A DNA stretch of 38,215 nt from an uncultured Eubacteriales bacterium. Its GTDB lineage: Bacteria; Bacillota; Clostridia; UBA1381; UBA9506. The notes beneath the pieces are model-generated. The model saw only the letters and a program-made list of their open reading frames with translations. It did not search any database and was not told the DNA's origin. The stretch lies in contig CASGBM010000004.1 of NCBI GenBank assembly GCA_949299615.1, forward strand, positions 1 to 38,215, in the 5' to 3' direction. Both the position numbers and the translations under genes were made by a program. Each line of letters starts with the position of its first letter. Position 1 is the first letter of the stretch. Positions 24,995-34,338 of this stretch are shown here, piece after piece.

Positions 24995-25642
24995 TTATTT
25001 TTTTCCAAAATAGATTTTAGTATATTGTTCGGCGCAGTATTTTGCAATGCGGATATATCCTTCTTCCAGCAAATGAACGCCGTCGGGAGTGTATAAATTT
25101 GCATGATCTTTGATCAAAGAATAGAAATCAAACACAATTAAACCTTTTTCCTGGGCGATTTTTTTTGCAATTTCATTTCGCTCGATCACAGTTTGGTTTC
25201 TTACGTCAAATTCATTTAAGTTCTCTTTGCTTCGCACCGGCGTCGTTAAAGCGACAATCAGCGGAACGCTTTTGCATTGATTTTCTATAAAATCAATGGC
25301 TTTTCTGTAATATTTTTCATAGTCATCGTTTTTAAGATGCCATCCGTGCAGACCGTTGTTGATTTGAATGAGATCGGTTCTAGCTTGCTGAGCGAGGACA
25401 TTTTCTAAGGTTTTAAGAAAATAGCGGTTATCCAGCGCCTTAGAGGTTCCAAAGACGTCGGCGTACATCCTGCCGTTTAATTCTTTGTTTATAAGCTGAC
25501 GATAGCCGCAGGAGATAGAATCTCCCACAATTAACACTCGAGGCGGTTTAGAATCGTCGGCATGCTCCCACCAAATATTATCCCATTCATAGGTTTCCAG
25601 AGGATGATCGGTTAATGTTTCTTGGTATGTAAATGATTCCAT
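24995..25642 (-). CDS. SGNH/GDSL-type hydrolase, cytoplasmic
   Basis: This is a 215-residue SGNH-fold hydrolase without signal peptide. Block I is VGDSIS with nucleophile S42, the Asn block III is in INNGLHGWH, and the C-terminal Asp-His pair is in TPDGVHL near residue 190. SGNH enzymes cleave acyl esters on sugars, lipids or other small molecules; the natural substrate cannot be read from the sequence. AAGAAGG lies upstream of ATG 25642. It follows the AraC gene by 138 bases on the same strand and probably shares its transcript. A second SGNH hydrolase is encoded at 32433, in the nearby LacI-linked operon, which suggests related substrates. Confidence 0.88.
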   Translation of the reverse strand: MESFTYQETLTDHPLETYEWDNIWWEHADDSKPPRVLIVGDSISCGYRQLINKELNGRMYADVFGTSKALDNRYFLKTLENVLAQQARTDLIQINNGLHGWHLKNDDYEKYYRKAIDFIENQCKSVPLIVALTTPVRSKENLNEFDVRNQTVIERNEIAKKIAQEKGLIVFDFYSLIKDHANLYTPDGVHLLEEGYIRIAKYCAEQYTKIYFGKK

Positions 25643-25780
25643 AAAAATTCCTTCTTTCGCATATTTTTCTTTGTAATATATTCTGCAAAAAAAGTTTTTT
25701 TCCTTTTTATTTTATTTAATTTCTTGCTGCCTCTGCCATTGCATAAATGTTTTCCAAAGGAACGTCCGGCAAGATACTCT

Positions 25781-26503
25781 TTATATTCCTCCATGATATT
25801 GTTTTGGAGATACTCCAAATTTATTTTTAAATGCCTTTCCAAATGATTTTGCATCGGCATAGCCGATAGATTTTGCAATGGCAGAAATCTTCATATTTGA
25901 GCTTAAAAGCTTTTGTGATTCCTTAAGCCGCATATTCATTAAATACTGGTGAGGCGTTATGCCTAATTCTTTTTTAAACAGGCGTATAAAATATTCCGGA
26001 TGGTAGCCTGCCAGTTTGCTAAGCTGAGAAAGAGAAATATTTTGGCTTAAGTGGTTAGCGATATAATCTGTTGCAGTTTTAATGTCGGAAGCAGGTTCCT
26101 GCAAGAGATGGTTTTGGGATAAATAGATGCGAAACAGTTCACACAAAGCGCTTAATGACTGCACATGATTGTTTTTTATATCCATTTGAAATAATTCAAA
26201 TAGCTTTTGAATATAGCAGTTATTGCTTAAATCAATTTCTGATACCTTATGGAGCACTAAAGGATAAAAATCTACGTGTAAATACATGCAGTTGAGAGGC
26301 TTTTGCGGATTGTGGCATATTTCATACGGCTTTGAGGTGGGGAAAATATAAAGATGGCAAGATTTTAGCGGAAATTGCGTGCAATCATCACGATACCATG
26401 CCTCGCCGCCAAATACCTGGTATATTCTGCTAAATGGCGCCGGATGCATTTCTATGACATGCCAATTTGGCGGAGTAATGCAAGTCCCATAAATTAAAAG
26501 CAT
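25781..26503 (-). CDS. AraC family transcriptional regulator
   Basis: This is a 240-residue regulator. The C-terminal 95 residues form the double HTH of the AraC/XylS family (ISLSQLSKLAGYHPEYFIRLFKKELG and ISAIAKSIGYADAKSFGKAFKNKFG, given in part), ending GVSPKQYHGG. The N-terminal half looks like a cupin ligand domain with 'FPTSKPYEICHN...LHVDFYP', so a small ligand, perhaps a carbohydrate, is likely. ATG 26503 follows GGAGGGGAAAG. It is divergent from the URO-D-like gene at 26654 and upstream of the SGNH gene, so it is the obvious candidate to control both. The effector is unknown. Confidence 0.93.
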   Translation of the reverse strand: MLLIYGTCITPPNWHVIEMHPAPFSRIYQVFGGEAWYRDDCTQFPLKSCHLYIFPTSKPYEICHNPQKPLNCMYLHVDFYPLVLHKVSEIDLSNNCYIQKLFELFQMDIKNNHVQSLSALCELFRIYLSQNHLLQEPASDIKTATDYIANHLSQNISLSQLSKLAGYHPEYFIRLFKKELGITPHQYLMNMRLKESQKLLSSNMKISAIAKSIGYADAKSFGKAFKNKFGVSPKQYHGGI

Positions 26504-26533
26504 ATTACTTTCCCCTCCTTGATTTTTTTCTAT

Positions 26534-26562
26534 ACTTTATCACAAAAAATTTTAAAAGTCAA
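26534..26562 (-). promoter_or_regulatory. Putative promoter of the AraC gene
   Basis: On the minus strand, TTGACT (26562-26557) and TAAAGT (26539-26534) are 17 bases apart, about 30 bases before the start codon. Confidence 0.5.
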
Positions 26563-26592
26563 TTTTGGAGTATTTATTATATGTTTTTGTGG

Positions 26593-26620
26593 TTTACAAT
26601 AACAGATGTTTTGCTATAAT
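26593..26620 (+). promoter_or_regulatory. Putative promoter of the URO-D-like gene 26654
   Basis: TTTACA (26593-26598) and a perfect TATAAT (26615-26620) have a 16-base spacer and a TG one base before the -10. It faces away from the AraC promoter, leaving about 30 bases between their -35 elements for shared operator sites. Confidence 0.6.
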
Positions 26621-26653
26621 GAAATTACCAAAACGAGAAAGGTTGGGAGGCCG

Positions 26654-27901
26654 ATGAATTTAACACAAAAAGAAATCCAAACTTTAAGAGAATTAGCAAA
26701 ACAGTATATGGAGATTGCGTGTTTGCCGGTGCATAAAGAAAAAATTAAACTGTGGAAAGCATTAAACAGGGGAGATATGCAGCGCCCAATGGTTGTAATT
26801 GATCAGATCCCGTGGCACGAACTAAATGCCGGCGGCGAGTTAACTTGTGTATGCAGGGATCCGTTTTGGAAAAGTATTGAAAGCCAATGGAGAATGGATT
26901 TATACAAGTGGAAACATTTTGCAGTAGATATGGTCCTAGATCCATTTATTATGATTCCTAAAGTCATTTCGGATATGGGGTATGGCATTCAAATTTCGGA
27001 AAACATCTTGAAAACGGATGAAAACAATTCGGTTGTATCCCATTCCTATAAGAATCAAATTCAAACAGAAGAAGATATTGAAAAAATTAAAGATATGGTA
27101 ATTCAGTATGATGAAGCAGCAAGTATGGAGAGGCTAAACGAAGCAGAATTTATTTTCGAAGGAATTGCTCCTGTGCAGTTAAATGGAGGCATGGGACTGC
27201 ATTTAGGGCTATGGGACCATTTGTCTTTTTGGATGGGGCTTGAAGCTATTTTTTATGATTTTGTTGACCGTCCGGAATTTATACACAAAGTGTTAAGACG
27301 TATAACAGATGCAACAATAGCAGGAATTAAGCAAATCAACGATCAGAATATTCACGATAATTTTGCAAACACCTGCCATTGCTCATATATTTTTACTGAT
27401 GAGCTGCATCCAGATACGGGTGTTTGTAATAATTTTAAAACAAGCGGCGGCTGGGGATTTAGCATGGCGCAGCTGATGACGTCGACCTCGCCGGAGTGCA
27501 CAAAAGAATTTGAGGTTCCGTATATCAACCAATTGGCTGAGCACTATGGAATGATCTATTATGGCTGCTGTGAACGGCTGGATGATCGGCTCGATATTGT
27601 AAAACAAATAAAAAATGTAAAAAAAATTTCCTGCAGCCCGTGGAGCAATAAAAGAAATTTTGCAGAGCAAATCGGCAGTAAAATCATTATGTCGAACAAG
27701 CCGAATCCGGCATTTTTGGGCAATTCTTCATTTGACGAAGAAATTGTCAGAAAGGACCTTTTGGAAACCTGCCGCATTGCAAAAGAAAACCATGTGAATG
27801 TTGAGTTGATTTTAAAAGATATATCTACCGTAAAATATGACCCTAAAAGGCTTGACCGATGGGCGCAAATTGCGATGGAGGTTGTTTCTGATTTTGAATA
27901 A
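26654..27901 (+). CDS. URO-D/methyltransferase superfamily protein, subgroup with GCCE motif
   Basis: This is a 415-residue soluble protein that I place in the uroporphyrinogen decarboxylase / MtaA-like superfamily on its overall pattern: a TIM-barrel-sized protein with WDHLSFWMGLEAIFYDFVDRPE, then a Cys site in the C-terminal half. Instead of the His-x-Cys zinc site of MtaA it has Y-G-C305-C306-E307. A later block ISCSPWSN and ELILKDISTV occupies the position where the family closes its active site. The substrate is unknown; cobamide methyl transfer and non-cobamide decarboxylation are both possible. ATG 26654 follows GGGAGG. It stands alone behind its own promoter opposite the AraC regulator. 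It is not HemE. Confidence 0.7.
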   Translation: MNLTQKEIQTLRELAKQYMEIACLPVHKEKIKLWKALNRGDMQRPMVVIDQIPWHELNAGGELTCVCRDPFWKSIESQWRMDLYKWKHFAVDMVLDPFIMIPKVISDMGYGIQISENILKTDENNSVVSHSYKNQIQTEEDIEKIKDMVIQYDEAASMERLNEAEFIFEGIAPVQLNGGMGLHLGLWDHLSFWMGLEAIFYDFVDRPEFIHKVLRRITDATIAGIKQINDQNIHDNFANTCHCSYIFTDELHPDTGVCNNFKTSGGWGFSMAQLMTSTSPECTKEFEVPYINQLAEHYGMIYYGCCERLDDRLDIVKQIKNVKKISCSPWSNKRNFAEQIGSKIIMSNKPNPAFLGNSSFDEEIVRKDLLETCRIAKENHVNVELILKDISTVKYDPKRLDRWAQIAMEVVSDFE

Positions 27902-28295
27902 TATAGCATTTGAAAATGAAACAATTTTGATAGGAGACAAACCTTTCGCTGTGCGCAGAAATCATTTTTATGACGCAAAACTGTTAAAATAATAATTAAA
28001 GCCCAAATGTCTGGAGTTTGTTGGCCTGATGAAGGATGAATCTGCCGGGACGCAGGAAATAAAAGAAGTATTTCGTATGAAAAAGGATTAATGCGGTTTT
28101 TGCATATGCGAAAGAAAAATGCAGAGGAATCCAAAAACGAGAGCAGAAAAACCATCGGGGTTTGTTGTGAAACTGTGAAAAGAAAAAATATTTTTTGTGC
28201 AAAGCAGACAAAAACATAGAAAGTCATTTTGCGCTACTTGACATTTTAAAGTAATTATAATAAACTGATTACAATAATTCTGGGTGGGGTGCAGT
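27902..28295. other. Intergenic region before the LacI-type regulator
   Basis: This is 394 bases with no supported gene apart from the promoter at its right end. One plus-strand frame (about 27998-28091) encodes a stretch with GLMKDESAGTQEIKEVF but has no ribosome site; it could be a relic of a lost gene. No terminator is obvious after 27901. Confidence 0.5.
28238..28266 (+). promoter_or_regulatory. Putative promoter of the LacI-type regulator
   Basis: TTGACA (28238-28243) is followed after 17 bases by TAAACT (28261-28266). A TATAAT at 28256-28261 is too close to that -35 to be its partner. Confidence 0.55.
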
Positions 28296-29258
28296 ATGGC
28301 TACGATGAAAGAGATTGCAAAAAAAGTCGGCGTGTCGACTGCGGCAGTATCCTATGCAATCAATAATAAACCCGGAGTGAATGAAGAAACAAAGCAGAAA
28401 ATTTTGAATGCGGTAAATGAGCTGGGTTATACGCCAAACTCAATTGCGCGCAGTTTGAAAACAAAACGGACCGACATTATCGGGATCGTTGTGCCAAATA
28501 TTTCGAGTATTTATACTTCGAAATTTTTAGAGTATTTAGAACATGCGGCGAAACAGTCCGGAATGTATGTGCTGATCGGCTGTACGGACGGCAAAATTGC
28601 CAATGAAAAAAAAGTAATTAAAAGCTTTATAGAAAAAAATATTGACGGGATCATTTTATGTCCCGGCAATGGTTATAAAGAGGCGTCTTATCAATTTTTT
28701 AAACAGGAAGCGCTGGAATCTTCGGTTCCGTTTGTCGTTTTTGGGCTGAATATAGGAAATGACATCAGCTCTGTTTCCGTTGATTTAAAAAAAGCGCAAT
28801 ATCAGTTAACAAAAAGTGTGTTAAAAAAGCAGATTACGGATATTGTTTTTTTTGGCGGCAATAAAAAATATTGCTATTCTCAGTTTAAATTTTTAGGATA
28901 CCAGCAGGCGATGGAGCAGGCGGGCTTATCTGCACAGTTTTATAAAAGCGGCAATTTGTATATTTTTGAAGAAGGGTATCATGCTGCGCTGGAATATCTG
29001 CGCACTCACAAAAAGCCGCAATGCATTATGGCAGTAAATGATATTGTCGCTTGCGGCGCTTTGAAAGCTTTGCGCGAACTGCAACTGAGCGATATTATGG
29101 TAACAGGATTTGACGGGATTAAGGTAGAAGGATTGACGGATGACGCTATGCCTACGGTTGTTGTGCCTCTTGAGGAAATGGCGCAGAAGGTGATTGATAT
29201 TTTAAACAGCAGGCAATTAAAGATTTGCGAGGTATCGCCTAAAATCCGATGCAGCTAA
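28296..29258 (+). CDS. LacI family transcriptional regulator
   Basis: This is a 320-residue repressor-type protein. The HTH is at residues 3-25 (MKEIAKKVGVSTAAVSYAINN) with the hinge helix SIARSLKTKRT, then a periplasmic-binding-like sensor domain (IIGIVVPNISSIYTSKFLEYLE; VTGFDGIKVEGL near the end). The family usually senses sugars or their derivatives. ATG 28296 has GGGTGGGG six bases upstream; a GTG at 28284 overlaps that site. The gene lies just upstream of the dehydrogenase-URO-D operon, whose start region carries a LacI-type palindrome (29293-29306), so that operon is the likely target. Confidence 0.94.
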   Translation: MATMKEIAKKVGVSTAAVSYAINNKPGVNEETKQKILNAVNELGYTPNSIARSLKTKRTDIIGIVVPNISSIYTSKFLEYLEHAAKQSGMYVLIGCTDGKIANEKKVIKSFIEKNIDGIILCPGNGYKEASYQFFKQEALESSVPFVVFGLNIGNDISSVSVDLKKAQYQLTKSVLKKQITDIVFFGGNKKYCYSQFKFLGYQQAMEQAGLSAQFYKSGNLYIFEEGYHAALEYLRTHKKPQCIMAVNDIVACGALKALRELQLSDIMVTGFDGIKVEGLTDDAMPTVVVPLEEMAQKVIDILNSRQLKICEVSPKIRCS

Positions 29259-29261
29259 AAT

Positions 29262-29291
29262 TTGATATAAGTTTTATTTATTTTTTTATAA
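29262..29291 (+). promoter_or_regulatory. Putative promoter of the dehydrogenase-URO-D operon
   Basis: TTGATA (29262-29267) and TTATAA (29286-29291) are 18 bases apart; shifting by one gives TATAAA with a 19-base spacer. Transcription would start near 29298, inside the palindrome. Confidence 0.42.
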
Positions 29292-29292
29292 A

Positions 29293-29306
29293 CTTAAACG
29301 ATTAAG
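29293..29306 (+). promoter_or_regulatory. Putative LacI-type operator
   Basis: CTTAAACGATTAAG is symmetrical except for one base pair, around the central CG that LacI-family proteins contact. It overlaps the likely transcription start and touches the ribosome site of 29317. A neighbouring LacI-type gene supports the assignment. No second copy was found. Confidence 0.5.
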
Positions 29307-29316
29307 GAGGAGCGAA

Positions 29317-30312
29317 ATGAAAGCAGGATTTGTAAAAAAAGGGTTTCAATTTCAGGTAAAAGACGTGCCTCTTCGCGCGATTGAAGAAAACGAAGTGTTG
29401 GTTTCTGTCAAGACGTGCAGTCTCTGCGGGCACGATTTAATACTGGCAGGGTATGCTGCGGAAGATTTCATTCAGTTTGGGCATGAGGTTGCCGGTGTGG
29501 TAGAAGCTGTGGGCAGACTGGTCAAAAATGTGGCAGTGGGCGATAAGGTCGTGTTAGAAAGCGGCACATTTGACCGTTTTTCTGATGCTTGCCGCAACGG
29601 GCATCCGGAGCTAGACAACAAAGGCCCAAATTTTTGGGAGCGTCCGGGAGAAACGATGGGTTTTGCGGAAAAAATTATTGTTCCGATGGAAACCTGCGTA
29701 AAATTTAATGATCTTTCGTTCTTAGCGGCATGTAATATTGAGCCGATGGGCGTGGCGCTTGATTTGGTAAAAGCAGGAGATATCCGGCTGGGCGACCGCG
29801 TGTTGGTGATGGGTCTTGGACCAATTGGCTTAATGGCAGCTCGTTTGGCTCGGCTGAGCGGCGCAATTAAGGTGTATGCAACCGAAATGCCGGACTGCGA
29901 AGCAAAAATTAAATTAGCGAAAGAATGGGGCGTGGACGAAGTCTTTGCGCCGGATAATATCCCGGTTCGCGTAAATAAAGTGCTGGTAACGGCGCCTCCG
30001 GTTGTCATTAATCAAGGGATTGATGTGTGTGAAGTCGGCGGCACGGTTTCCTTCTTAGGCATCGCTTATGGCGAAGCAGGAGTGATTCCTCTTGATACAA
30101 CAAAAATTCACTTTGACAAAATTAAGGTCATTCCATCTCATGCAAGCCCGGCGCTGCATTTCCCGGAATGCATCAGCCTGGCAGAAGCCGGCATGATCAA
30201 TTTGGAGCAAGTGGTGACGCATCCGTTCAAAATAGACGACATGCAGGAAAAAATTGTAGAATTTAAACAAGACAAAAAGAATGGGATTAAGGCGGTGATG
30301 GTCAATGATTAA
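29317..30312 (+). CDS. Zinc-type medium-chain alcohol/polyol dehydrogenase
   Basis: This is a 331-residue MDR-family NAD(P)-dependent dehydrogenase. The catalytic zinc ligands are visible: C37 in SLCGHD, H56-E57 in GHEVAG, and the proton-relay region nearby. The Rossmann motif GLGPIG lies near residue 168. The four-cysteine structural zinc loop of most family members is missing; only one Cys is left in the stretch around residues 85-110. This pattern suits sugar or polyol oxidation, but the substrate is unknown. ATG 29317 follows AAGGAGGAG. The next gene overlaps its end by 8 bases. Confidence 0.88.
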   Translation: MKAGFVKKGFQFQVKDVPLRAIEENEVLVSVKTCSLCGHDLILAGYAAEDFIQFGHEVAGVVEAVGRLVKNVAVGDKVVLESGTFDRFSDACRNGHPELDNKGPNFWERPGETMGFAEKIIVPMETCVKFNDLSFLAACNIEPMGVALDLVKAGDIRLGDRVLVMGLGPIGLMAARLARLSGAIKVYATEMPDCEAKIKLAKEWGVDEVFAPDNIPVRVNKVLVTAPPVVINQGIDVCEVGGTVSFLGIAYGEAGVIPLDTTKIHFDKIKVIPSHASPALHFPECISLAEAGMINLEQVVTHPFKIDDMQEKIVEFKQDKKNGIKAVMVND

Positions 30313-31339
30313 GTATGGTATTATTGGGTGCGGCAATATTTCGCGTTTTCATTTTCATGGCATTGAAAAAGCGGGCGCAAAGGTTACATACATTGCAGAT
30401 ATTAACGAAGCTGCAGCAAAACCGTGGATCGAAAAAACAGGCGCGCGCTATACCAAAGACTATAAAGAACTGGTAGACAGCGACGAAGTGGATGTTGTTT
30501 CGATTTTAACCAATACAAAATTCCACAAAGAAATGGCGCTGTATGCGATCGCAAAAGGAAAAGCAGTTGTCTGCGAAAAGACGATGGCAAATAACGGGGA
30601 GGAAGCGTGGGAAATTGCACAACAAGTGCAAAAAGCCGGAACGCTGTTTTTTACCACCTATATGAAACGCTTTTTCCCGGCGGTGGTCAAAGGAAAAGAA
30701 CTGTATTCCAAGCTGGGCAGAGTGATTTCGGCTCAGGTCAGAAGCTATCAGTCATGGGGCGATTTCTTTACCGCGCCGGATATGGGATGGGCAGAAGGCG
30801 TTACTAAAAGCTTCGGCGGCGCAATTTTAAAATGCGCAGGTTCGCATATGCTGGATATGACGATGAACTTTTTGGGCAAACCGCAGAGCGTGTACGCGAA
30901 CATCGATTATTTCCCGCAGACGGATTTTGACCGCCGTGTGACTGCCGTGATGCGTTTTGCGGATAATATCGCGGCAACGTTTGAAACGATTCCGCACCCG
31001 CTTTCTAAAATCGGGTATGAGCGAAACAGCTGGGACGAAAAAATTGAAATCAACGGAACGGGCGGACGCCTAGAGATCTACACCGTAATGTGGGATGCGC
31101 CGGAAAATAACTGCGCGCTGTTGAAATTTTATGACAATGAGACGCAGACGGAGACAGAATACCGTTTTGACGCGGTAAATCCGTTTGATATTGAATTGTG
31201 TGAGATTACAAAAGCGGTAGAGCGCGGAGAACAAATTGCGCCCAGCGTGGTAGAAGGCTACCGCGTTGACGAGTTAATTTCCGCAATTGAAAAGAGCGCC
31301 AAGTTAAAAGCTGAGGTGGATATTGATTGGAAAATTTAA
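30305..31339 (+). CDS. Gfo/Idh/MocA family oxidoreductase
   Basis: This is a 344-residue NAD(P)-binding oxidoreductase. The Rossmann motif is GCGNIS (residues 8-13) and E91-K92-T93 replaces the usual EKP, with K92 conserved. In the active-site block 'D-x-G-x-H', H181 is present but the aspartate position is C177 (ILKCAGSH), so the catalytic pair differs from inositol dehydrogenase. The rest shows the usual beta-sheet domain with ERNSWDEKIEINGTGGRLEI. Such enzymes oxidise or reduce sugars, inositols and sugar acids or catalyse eliminations. Its start lies 8 bases inside the dehydrogenase gene; its end overlaps the next by 13. Confidence 0.9.
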   Translation: MIKYGIIGCGNISRFHFHGIEKAGAKVTYIADINEAAAKPWIEKTGARYTKDYKELVDSDEVDVVSILTNTKFHKEMALYAIAKGKAVVCEKTMANNGEEAWEIAQQVQKAGTLFFTTYMKRFFPAVVKGKELYSKLGRVISAQVRSYQSWGDFFTAPDMGWAEGVTKSFGGAILKCAGSHMLDMTMNFLGKPQSVYANIDYFPQTDFDRRVTAVMRFADNIAATFETIPHPLSKIGYERNSWDEKIEINGTGGRLEIYTVMWDAPENNCALLKFYDNETQTETEYRFDAVNPFDIELCEITKAVERGEQIAPSVVEGYRVDELISAIEKSAKLKAEVDIDWKI

Positions 31340-32436
31340 CTCCGAAACAAAGAATGCTGAACGCATACCGGGGACCGCAAAACGACCGTTTTGCAGTCGC
31401 TCCCGAATTTTGGTGCTATTATCCGGCAAAAGTGCTGGATGTGCCGATGATCGAATTTGAACGGGAGATCCCGTTTTGGAAAAGCTTGAAGTCCGTTTTT
31501 GAGCGGTATGACTGCGAGGGTTGGGGGATTTTTATTCCCAGTTTTCAAAATGAAAATTTGGAAACGAATGTTGTTTTAAACGGTTATGAAGAAACTACCA
31601 GCTATGATTATTGCGGCAAGCATTTTGAAGTGAAAAAAATGTATGATCAGGCAGAGTCTTGCTGGCAGACAAAGCATTTGGCAACAGAGGAAACGTTATC
31701 TGATGTGATTGATATGCTCTTAGATCCCAAAAACGTTTATGATTTTCATGCCGCACGGCAGGCACACGAAGCCGTAGGTGAAAGTTATCTGCTGGAACTT
31801 TGGATGGGAATGCCGTTTTTTGACTTTGTTGCAGAACTGATTGGATTTGAAAATGCAGTTTTGTATTTTGTAGATGAAGATAAAGCGGTTTTACGGTCTT
31901 ATCGGGAACGGTATACGCAGTATCAAAAAGAGTTTATCAAACAAGCGGCAGAACAAACGGATTATGAAAGTTTTATGATGGGCTGTTCGTATTCGTGCAA
32001 TTCCTTAATCGGTCAGCAGATGTGGAGAAAATGGGATAAACCGTATATCAAGGAAATTACCGATACAGTTCATCAATATCAAAAGCTGATCCACATTCAT
32101 TTTCATGGGAAAAGCATAGAAACGGCAGAGGACTTTGCACAAATTGGGCTTGACTGCGTCTGTCCGTTTGAACGGGGACCGGGCGGAGACGTTACCACCC
32201 GGGATGACTTAAAGTATGTCCGCTGCGCTTTGGATGACAAAGTAACGTTTAACGGAAACGTACACACGGTGGAATCGCTGATTCGGGGAGATGAAAAGAA
32301 AGTCCGCAGCGAGGTTCGGCAGATCAAAGAAGTGTTTGCAGCATCTAACAGGATTATCATCGGTACGGGAGATCAGGTAGGGCGAGAAACGCCGGAGGAA
32401 AATATAATAGCCATGATTGAGGAGGCAAAACGATGA
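31327..32436 (+). CDS. URO-D/methyltransferase superfamily protein, His-x-His type
   Basis: This is a 369-residue protein of the uroporphyrinogen decarboxylase-like superfamily, which includes the zinc-dependent cobamide methyltransferases MtaA and MtbA. Typical features are the N-terminal TPKQRMLNAYRG, a central LWMGMPFFDFVAELIGFENAVL and the C-terminal TPEENIIAMIEEAKR. In the usual zinc site (His-x-Cys, then Cys) it has H258-x-H260 and D349 in the place of the third ligand, so a different metal preference is possible. The start is TTG 31327, with GAGGTGG eight bases upstream, overlapping the preceding gene by 13 bases. Its substrate is unknown. It is not expected to be HemE because no haem genes are near. 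Confidence 0.8.
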   Translation: MENLTPKQRMLNAYRGPQNDRFAVAPEFWCYYPAKVLDVPMIEFEREIPFWKSLKSVFERYDCEGWGIFIPSFQNENLETNVVLNGYEETTSYDYCGKHFEVKKMYDQAESCWQTKHLATEETLSDVIDMLLDPKNVYDFHAARQAHEAVGESYLLELWMGMPFFDFVAELIGFENAVLYFVDEDKAVLRSYRERYTQYQKEFIKQAAEQTDYESFMMGCSYSCNSLIGQQMWRKWDKPYIKEITDTVHQYQKLIHIHFHGKSIETAEDFAQIGLDCVCPFERGPGGDVTTRDDLKYVRCALDDKVTFNGNVHTVESLIRGDEKKVRSEVRQIKEVFAASNRIIIGTGDQVGRETPEENIIAMIEEAKR

Positions 32437-33089
32437 TTAAACCAGGTTTATTTGGAAAAGCAGTAGCGGCGAATAACCGCAGAATGGAGTTTGATTTTAA
32501 AAACGAACAGCTGCTGCACTTAAATCAGCCGATTGATATTTTGTTCATCGGTGACAGCATAACAGAACTATGGGATATGAACGCCTACTTAAAAACGGAC
32601 GCCTTTTTCGTAAACCGCGGGATCGGCGGTGATGTTTCAGAATATCTGCTCAAGCGCTTTGACGCAGATTGTATCCAGCTAAAACCAAAGACCTGTATTT
32701 TAATGATCGGTACGAATGATATTACCAAAACGCATTTTGATCCGTGGTGGAAAGAACCGGGCGAAAGCGAAGAGAAAGTTTTATCAGACTATAAAAATAA
32801 TATTCTCAAAATGGTTGACAAATGCGACCGTGCGGGAATACAATTAATTTTGTGTTCTGTGATCCCTTCGGATATTGCGCCGCCGTATGAAAAAGAAATT
32901 CGGTGGAAGATGACGAAAGAAATGAATGAATTTTTACAGAGTCTGGGAAAAACGTATGTGGATTATCACAGCGTGCTCACCAATGACGGAAAACGGATCA
33001 AAGCAGGTTATTCGCTTGATGGAATTCATCCGAATGCAGTAGCATATGAATTAATGGCACAAAAACTGAAGGAGGTAGTGAAGCTATGA
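32433..33089 (+). CDS. SGNH hydrolase, GDSL type, cytoplasmic
   Basis: This is a 218-residue SGNH hydrolase of the PAF-acetylhydrolase-like group. Blocks are IGDSIT (nucleophile S42), GIGGD, GTND near residue 93 and LDGIHPN, with the catalytic Asp and His near residues 201-204. No signal peptide is seen, so it works in the cytoplasm, probably removing an acyl group from an imported or modified small molecule. The start codon overlaps the previous stop (ATGA), and its stop overlaps the next start (ATGA). This makes the four-gene core translationally coupled. Confidence 0.93.
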   Translation: MIKPGLFGKAVAANNRRMEFDFKNEQLLHLNQPIDILFIGDSITELWDMNAYLKTDAFFVNRGIGGDVSEYLLKRFDADCIQLKPKTCILMIGTNDITKTHFDPWWKEPGESEEKVLSDYKNNILKMVDKCDRAGIQLILCSVIPSDIAPPYEKEIRWKMTKEMNEFLQSLGKTYVDYHSVLTNDGKRIKAGYSLDGIHPNAVAYELMAQKLKEVVKL

Positions 33090-34114
33090 CCAAAAAAGAA
33101 CGCGTGATTAGCGCAATTTGTCATAAAACGGTGGACCGTGTACCAAAAGGGGAAACGTGGATTGACGGCAGTTTGGCAAACGCGATTTTAAAAGCCGATT
33201 ATCCGCTGGATTATTTTGATTTTGACCGTGATTTAGCAATCCGCAAACGCCTGAATATGGACTTAATCAACGTGGGCGACTGGCCGAGCAAACCAACCGG
33301 CAAAATGTATGATGGCTATCCGGTTTTTTTATCCAATTATGGGTATGAATTTATACAAGGCGTGTCAAAACACGTCATTAAGCCGCCGGTAGAGGATATT
33401 GAGGATGCGGCAAACTATGTAAAACCGGATATTCATCAGGTGAATCCGACGCTGGTAAAACGTTTTTCAACCGAATCCGATTTTTTTGTGTTCGCCCAAG
33501 TAGGCGGTCCGGTCAGTATGCTGGACGAAATGTTTGACATGGAGGATTATCTGGTTTATTGCATGACTAACACAGACGAAATCGCCCTCATTACGGATAA
33601 AGTCATGGAGTATGAAACAGAAAAGGCGAAGCTGTTTTTGGATAACGGCGCAGACGCAATTTTTGTCGCGGATGATATTGCCTTTAACACCGGAACCTTT
33701 TTGCCGCCGCATATTATGGATCAGCTGGTATTTCCGTATTATAAAAAGCTTGTCTGTGATATTAAGGCGTATAAGGATGTTCCCGTGTTTGCCCATTCAG
33801 ATGGAAACTTAAACGCCGTCTTGCCGCGCTATGTTGAAGCAGGGTTTGACGGGCTTCAAAGCCTTCAGCCTTCCGCCGGAATGGATATTGAAGCAATTAA
33901 AAAAGAATATGGAAACGACCTGTGCCTTTGGGGAAATCTCGATCTAGACCGCCTGATGAGTTTTGGCACTCCGGATGAGGTCAAAAAAGAGGTTCGCAGG
34001 ATCATTGATATTGCAAACCGTGACGGCGGCTTCATTCTTTCTACCTGCAATACGATGGTAGGTTCTATTCCGCCGGAAAACGTCCTGGCGATGATGGAAG
34101 AATCTGAACGTTAA
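33086..34114 (+). CDS. URO-D/methyltransferase superfamily protein, His-x-Asp type
   Basis: This is a 342-residue protein of the URO-D-like superfamily, close in pattern to the MtaA group. Motifs are KKERVISAICHKTVDRVP at the start, the FAQVGGPVSMLDEMFDMEDYL core, H237-S-D239-G and C321 (in STCNTMVG), and a C-terminal PPENVLAMMEE. In MtaA from methanogens the zinc ligands are His240, Cys242 and Cys319. The matching positions here are His, Asp and Cys, with similar spacing. I recall that the HSDG variant is common in bacterial relatives of unknown function. No corrinoid protein is encoded nearby. It is the last large gene of the operon. Confidence 0.85.
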   Translation: MTKKERVISAICHKTVDRVPKGETWIDGSLANAILKADYPLDYFDFDRDLAIRKRLNMDLINVGDWPSKPTGKMYDGYPVFLSNYGYEFIQGVSKHVIKPPVEDIEDAANYVKPDIHQVNPTLVKRFSTESDFFVFAQVGGPVSMLDEMFDMEDYLVYCMTNTDEIALITDKVMEYETEKAKLFLDNGADAIFVADDIAFNTGTFLPPHIMDQLVFPYYKKLVCDIKAYKDVPVFAHSDGNLNAVLPRYVEAGFDGLQSLQPSAGMDIEAIKKEYGNDLCLWGNLDLDRLMSFGTPDEVKKEVRRIIDIANRDGGFILSTCNTMVGSIPPENVLAMMEESER

Positions 34115-34173
34115 TGGAAACAAATAGATATGGTTTGTATGAAGATAGAAAATCAAAACGGGGAGGAATTAGG

Positions 34174-34269
34174 ATGCAATTTGCAGTTTGTAAAGAGGTA
34201 ATGACACCGAAAAATGTAAAATATCAATCCGGTTTTGCAAGAAACACTTTAAAAATTGTCAGAAGGTAA
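34174..34269 (+). CDS. Small ORF of 31 residues with a strong ribosome site
   Basis: ATG 34174 follows GGGGAGGAATTAGG, one of the better ribosome sites in the window. The reading frame codes for 31 residues (begins MQFAVCKEVMTPKN, ends KIVRR) and stops 32 bases before the shared terminator. I do not recognise it. The strong initiation site after a long operon suggests either a real small protein or the 5' remnant of a larger gene that once closed the operon. Codon use is too short to judge. Confidence 0.4.
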   Translation: MQFAVCKEVMTPKNVKYQSGFARNTLKIVRR

Positions 34270-34300: not shown

Positions 34301-34338
34301 GATAAAACGGATCGCATAAAAATGCGATCCGTTTTATC
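34301..34338. terminator. Bidirectional intrinsic terminator
   Basis: A perfect 17-base stem (34301-34317 with 34322-34338) with an AAAA loop. The A/T outer part gives a U-rich end in both directions (GTTTTATC), so it can stop the plus-strand catabolic operon and the minus-strand permease gene. Confidence 0.88.

Follow-up and report, generated by a model that had tools for sequence, protein, structure and literature searches.

A recurrent gene cassette with URO-D-fold proteins in a probable LacI-controlled sugar-catabolic operon of an uncultured Eubacteriales bacterium

We analysed a stretch of 38,215 nucleotides (the window), positions 1 to 38,215 of the forward strand of contig CASGBM010000004.1, from the genome assembly GCA_949299615.1 (G000) of an uncultured Eubacteriales bacterium of the class Clostridia. 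The window contains a probable LacI-controlled sugar-catabolic operon, one form of a cassette found across phyla. In two phyla, with changed gene order, an alcohol/polyol dehydrogenase (ADH), a Gfo/Idh/MocA oxidoreductase (GFO), a URO-D-fold protein that we call uroA and a second URO-D-fold protein (uroB or uroC) occur as a group, often accompanied by an SGNH esterase. The operon probably encodes an undescribed anaerobic route for the removal of a substituent from a sugar. We consider that the pathway handles a sugar because richer versions of the cassette add a sugar ABC transporter, D-lyxose and L-fucose isomerases, a kinase, and glycoside hydrolases of the families GH38, GH29 or GH141. The literature on sugar O-demethylation in anaerobes and on URO-D proteins in sugar operons yielded nothing direct, and none of the papers searched describes the cassette.

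All genes of the operon lie on the forward strand. A LacI-family regulator (lacI, 28296-29258; PF00356 at 62.8 bits plus a ligand-binding domain, with an ATG start supported by a ribosome-binding site in a frame open from 28284) is followed by a zinc-type (MDR) ADH (29317-30312; PF08240, ADH_N, and PF00107, ADH_zinc_N), a GFO of a rare clade (30305-31339; PF01408, 77.8 bits), uroA (31327-32436; TTG start, PF01208 at 61 bits, with an HxH..E..H..D site), a cytoplasmic SGNH/GDSL hydrolase (32433-33089; PF13472, Lipase_GDSL_2, 72.5 bits) and uroB (33086-34114; PF01208 at 112.6 bits, with an HSD..N site). From ADH to uroB, successive genes overlap by 8, 13, 4 and 4 bases. With a gathering cut-off of 23.9 bits for PF01208, both uroA and uroB belong to the URO-D superfamily. 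A first-pass annotation made from the sequence alone had named these genes and their overlaps of 4-13 bases; the coordinates agree, and Pfam confirmed the LacI regulator, the dehydrogenase, the Gfo/Idh/MocA protein, the two URO-D proteins and the Lipase_GDSL_2 hydrolase.

The same genes group together well outside the window. Scanning the contigs of 84,980 species with two stringent peptide patterns retrieved only three loci. One belongs to a Victivallaceae genome of the Lentisphaerota (L033) and encodes, side by side, an ADH (30% identical to that of the window), uroC (30% to uroB), a GFO (46%), an SGNH hydrolase whose subtype differs, uroA (48%) and a D-lyxose isomerase. The richest version, found in G164, encodes an ABC substrate-binding protein, two permeases, an ATPase, a D-lyxose isomerase, ADH, GFO, uroA, uroC, uroB and a PfkB kinase, and continues with a GH38 enzyme, another URO-D protein and then an L-fucose isomerase and a LacI gene; its orthologs of the window proteins share 60% (GFO), 57% (uroB), 55% (uroA) and 51% (ADH) identity with them. 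The G744 cluster combines a SASA esterase, a GH141-domain protein, uroC, an SGNH hydrolase, a further URO-D protein, uroA, GFO and YhcH, and that of G609 an SGNH hydrolase, uroC, a further URO-D protein and uroA. The SGNH proteins of the G467, G609 and G744 clusters are of subtypes other than that of the operon. ADH directly adjoins GFO in the window, G164, G706, G697, G577 and G318 (where a GH29 fucosidase precedes the pair), lies one gene apart from it in L033 and is close to it in G581 (GFO at about 9532-10575 of L104), and a D-lyxose isomerase occurs near the cassette in two phyla. Between the Clostridia and the phylum that includes the Victivallaceae genome, gene content is conserved and gene order is not; in that phylum, four or five of the families cluster. 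The conserved co-occurrence for which the first-pass annotation had called thus held for gene content across phyla (L033, G164, G744) and failed for gene order, and the absence of transporters and glycoside hydrolases that it reported is true of the window operon but not of its relatives (ABC importer and GH38 in G164, GH29 in G318).

The genes involved are rare. uroA proper was detected in 3 of 391 genomes of the window's class (G000, G022 and G164) and in 9 of 289 genomes from the phylum to which the Victivallaceae genome belongs (hereafter the second phylum), and the GFO clade in 3 and 7 genomes of these two sets, respectively. Four of the 289 genomes share uroA and GFO (Fisher p = 1.5e-5, with genomes treated as independent and no correction for phylogeny), and in two of the four (G577 and G689) the two genes are not neighbours. 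Since the same families group again in another phylum, their clustering goes beyond chance. Among 100 relatives, close uroA orthologs were found only in G022 and G073 (same order, ~64% identical). Each of these (L002/L034 and L003/L035, respectively) follows a V-type ATPase operon and lacks further cassette genes around it; the reading frame of the G073 copy is broken. A search of plasmids gave no uroA ortholog and one weak distant match. PF01208 proteins number ten in G000 and none in its three genus-mates (G001-G003), which suggests either a gain in the G000 lineage or a loss in the genus-mates.

The metal sites of the URO-D-like proteins are altered, as had been proposed for these MtaA-like proteins: in the alignment with MtaA (4ay7), the zinc motif HIC..C is replaced by HFH..D in uroA and by HSD..N in uroB and uroC, so that neither uroA nor uroB has the His-x-Cys..Cys ligands of the S-type methyltransferases (MtaA, MtbA, Mlp), with which they share the URO-D fold. 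An alignment of 11 distinct uroA orthologs (in 12 rows, one locus having been fetched twice) revealed H256, H258, H260, D276, C277, C279, E282, R283, D288, H313, E316, D349 and Q350 as invariant, and MtaA has Ser at the position of H313. C220 and C63 are not essential, since the orthologs L070 and L069 lack the former and the latter, respectively. The predicted structure of uroA is of low confidence (pLDDT 62.6, pTM 0.67). Its best PDB matches in Foldseek were MtaA and UroD, with class II aldolases ranking below them at weak TM-scores of ~0.25; searching the PDB by sequence, with uroA alone or as a profile, retrieved no true relative, and only the fold search found MtaA and UroD. In this low-confidence model, from which we read residues and strand order rather than geometry, the conserved residues appear to belong to the final four strands of the barrel (254-260, 277-281, 308-311 and 344-346) or to the positions that immediately follow them. 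uroB, in turn, matches MtaA (4ay7) by sequence, and its predicted structure was too poor to use (pLDDT 50.7).

Among known systems, the closest in make-up are operons for oxidation, elimination, hydration and reduction, described for puerarin, levoglucosan and 3-keto-phlorizin (PMC10628242). That of A. tumefaciens (GlycDH/AtOGE/AtHYD/Gfo) encodes two oxidoreductases and two metal-barrel proteins. In its eliminase AtOGE, strands 5 to 8 provide the Mn ligands His132, Asp163, His189 and Glu233, the last of them a weak one, and His134 is the catalytic residue (PMC10628242). Like the deglycosylation operons of A. tumefaciens, the PUE strain (dgp) and B. smithii (levoglucosan), the window operon combines two oxidoreductases, one of them a Gfo member, with two metal barrels and a presumed sugar substrate; ADH, GFO, uroA and uroB together give it the composition of such a pathway. 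The likeness lies in composition and does not extend to homology of the barrels: both barrels of the window operon match only URO-D, whereas those of the described operons are of the sugar phosphate isomerase/epimerase type. In residue types, again as read from the low-confidence model, uroA appears similar to published metal-dependent 3-keto-glycoside eliminases and to AtOGE: strands 5-8 would carry a His/acid/His/acid series, with an H-x-H in strand 5. We also considered membership in the C-glycoside (Dgp) systems and rejected it; GFO resembles DgpA, yet no DgpB- or DgpC-like genes are nearby.

Because the operon make-up equals that of the A. tumefaciens operon and the uroA residue types appear to sit on the corresponding strands, we tentatively prefer a redox-assisted elimination in which the two URO-D-fold enzymes would act as eliminase and hydratase, a scheme of which we infer every catalytic step. 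ADH or GFO would oxidise a hydroxyl group on the ring of a modified sugar or glycoside taken up by the cell. The metal of uroA, held by some of the residues H258/H260, E282, H313 and D349 (barrel strands 5 to 8), would stabilise the enolate, and uroA would expel the neighbouring O-substituent. uroB (or uroC) might then re-add water or complete the rearrangement, the second dehydrogenase would reduce the keto-sugar, and the SGNH esterase may strip an acyl decoration. The URO-D barrels would thus fill the role that 'sugar phosphate isomerase/epimerase' barrels have in the known pathways. The first-pass annotation had proposed that a sugar-like acceptor is oxidised and then loses a group, which fits the sugar context of the relatives; elimination was not considered there, and the methyl removal that it named is possible, although no corrinoid protein is linked and G000 has no PF00809 protein.

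Several points weigh against the elimination scheme. We know of no URO-D-fold sugar eliminase and, to our knowledge, the members of the superfamily characterised so far that are not decarboxylases are corrinoid methyltransferases. Given the low confidence of the uroA model, we placed its putative metal site by sequence and strand order and not by geometry, and the HSD..N site of uroB has, as far as its sequence indicates, no clear likeness to a hydratase or eliminase pattern. uroA often occurs with no ADH, GFO or uroB in its vicinity, and at about half of the loci it stands without partners like those of the clusters described above. Which dehydrogenase would oxidise and which would reduce is a guess. 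In addition, a corrinoid-protein domain is present in every one of twelve carrier genomes checked directly, and RACo in 11 of them. Elimination explains the presence of two dehydrogenases and two metal-barrel enzymes at least as well as methyl removal does. A broader proposal is that, convergently with barrels of the sugar-phosphate-isomerase type, an anaerobic pathway spanning phyla has recruited the URO-D fold for metal-dependent elimination and hydration of sugars; this is possible, if doubtful.

The four structural-zinc cysteines are lost in the aligned ADHs of the window and G164 and kept in the other ADHs. The closest curated families are IolM for ADH (NF041097; 127 bits against a cut-off of 450) and IolG for GFO (TIGR04380; 97 bits against 355), both far under their cut-offs, and the operon has no other inositol genes. 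In the GFO clade, position C177, four residues ahead of the conserved His181, is occupied by Cys in 8 of 9 members and by Met in the remaining one; we take this position to be where inositol dehydrogenases have their catalytic Asp.

The main alternative, though rather unlikely, is that a methylated sugar or cyclitol undergoes corrinoid-dependent O-demethylation. Through a metal site that favours oxygen, uroA, uroB or both would engage the methoxy oxygen and hand the methyl group on to an unlinked corrinoid protein, whose active state RACo would maintain; the remaining sugar would be processed by the dehydrogenases and the esterase. In corrinoid O-demethylases (MtvB, OdmB, VdmB and CdmB type), methyltransferase I is a URO-D-superfamily protein whose Cys ligands are replaced by carboxylates or non-ligands (PMC10418091). 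uroA and uroB show the same kind of replacement, which is not specific and fits other functions too, and uroA has a His at the Cys-ligand position and an additional invariant His on strand 7, which argue against this role. Apart from nearly all carriers having a corrinoid protein and RACo, the latter is enriched among carriers of uroA or GFO in the second phylum (12 of 12 against 106 of 289 overall; p = 3.9e-6, genomes treated as independent), an association confounded by anaerobic life and shared descent. In G609, two MttB-type methyltransferase genes adjoin a distant uroA paralog and another URO-D gene (L073, 4527-11233), which speaks for this alternative. By contrast, known O-demethylase systems co-encode a corrinoid protein and methyltransferase II (PMC13222342), and neither these nor RACo are present in the window operon, where the lack of a corrinoid protein had been noted before, or in any other cassette. 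No PF00809 protein (dihydropteroate synthase, MetH or methyltransferase II) was found in G000 at 97.7% completeness, so that the usual methyl acceptor step is missing there. Moreover, demethylation does not need two dehydrogenases.

G000 does have a corrinoid locus elsewhere. On contig C28 (L085, 7209-10921) are encoded a URO-D protein, a corrinoid protein carrying the only such domain found in the genome, a RACo activase and a DUF1638 protein, an arrangement that resembles a type 1 mlp cluster. Such clusters bring together Mlp2 and Mlp3 with a corrinoid protein and a Ram/RACE activase; the window operon has no corrinoid protein or activase. Copies of PF01208 greatly outnumber corrinoid-protein domains in G609 (50 and one, respectively) and G467 (33 and two).

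It is unlikely that the URO-D-fold proteins carry out another metal-dependent step on the oxidised sugar, such as isomerisation, epimerisation or retro-aldol cleavage. The context of sugar isomerases, a kinase and epimerising dehydrogenases would suit such a pathway, as would IolM and IolG being the nearest, below-cut-off families of the dehydrogenases and, weakly, the class II aldolases among the Foldseek matches; but we identified no residue pattern specific for any of these three reactions, and the aldolase TM-scores are low. Finally, a loose neighbourhood of families common in glycan-degrading anaerobes, gathered by chance and horizontal transfer, would agree with the variable gene order, the solitary uroA of several genomes (such as that behind the V-ATPase operon of G022) and the many URO-D and Gfo genes of the other-phylum genomes, which raise the odds of chance adjacency. 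It is very unlikely, as what clusters in both phyla is the same set of rare orthologs and not just the same families, as uroA and GFO are found in the same genomes also where they are not linked, and as the window genes overlap.

The gene set reaches further to the left than the five-gene operon delimited in the first-pass annotation, which missed the part from 24995 to 27901. This part encodes a second SGNH/GDSL hydrolase (24995-25642, reverse strand; PF13472 at 40.9 bits, cut-off 32.9), 30% identical to the SGNH protein within the G744 cluster, an AraC-type regulator (25781-26503, reverse strand; PF12833 and PF00165) and a third, very divergent URO-D-like protein (urod0, 26606-27901, forward strand). 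The latter has a weak profile match to other URO-D proteins and no Pfam match, PF01208 included; its likely start is at 26654, and a strong promoter match (11 of 12 positions) lies at 26593-26620. We count these genes with the neighbourhood because their counterparts adjoin the cassette in G744, namely a urod0 ortholog (35% identity, 283 bits), an AraC gene and an SGNH gene of the same subtype as the second hydrolase. AraC genes also flank the G744, G609, G467, G706 and G697 loci.

Upstream of lacI, a candidate promoter matching the consensus (TTGACA-17-TAAACT, 28238-28279, forward strand) overlaps an imperfect palindrome (28253-28279), a candidate LacI operator. The five genes had been described as following a LacI regulator and a palindrome, and both exist; the only palindrome found precedes lacI, with none between lacI and the ADH gene. 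As the palindrome and the promoter match stand before lacI, with none between it and ADH, the transcript probably begins with lacI. Beyond uroB, a 31-codon frame (34174-34269) with a good ribosome-binding site (MQFAVCKEVMTPKNVKYQSGFARNTLKIVRR) resembles the start of a truncated sixth gene and has no family match. A perfect 17-bp hairpin (34301-34338), a probable terminator as judged from its sequence, separates the operon from the opposing gene. The right-flank gene has a counterpart in the genus-mate G001 (58% identical), around which no other window genes occur. Elsewhere in G000, a right-handed beta-helix protein is encoded beside another URO-D gene (contig C38; L092, 2985-5987), and GH141-domain beta-helix proteins also occur near cassette genes in G744 and G577. 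A link of GH141 to 2-O-methyl-fucose was considered and dropped, as the 2-O-methyl fucosidase is assigned to GH139 (PMC12282258).

Annotations usually label URO-D-like genes as porphyrin decarboxylases or methyltransferases, yet in some of these genomes dozens of them stand against one corrinoid protein. The cassette connects defined URO-D clades with a specific Gfo clade, with a dehydrogenase and with sugar genes, so that their function can be tested with four purified enzymes. If demethylation is correct, the cassette would be a candidate anaerobic route for methylated sugars. If elimination is correct, a fold known for decarboxylation and methyl transfer would gain a new chemistry, and its recruitment could account for some of the very large URO-D expansions (33-50 copies) of bacteria with only one or two corrinoid proteins.

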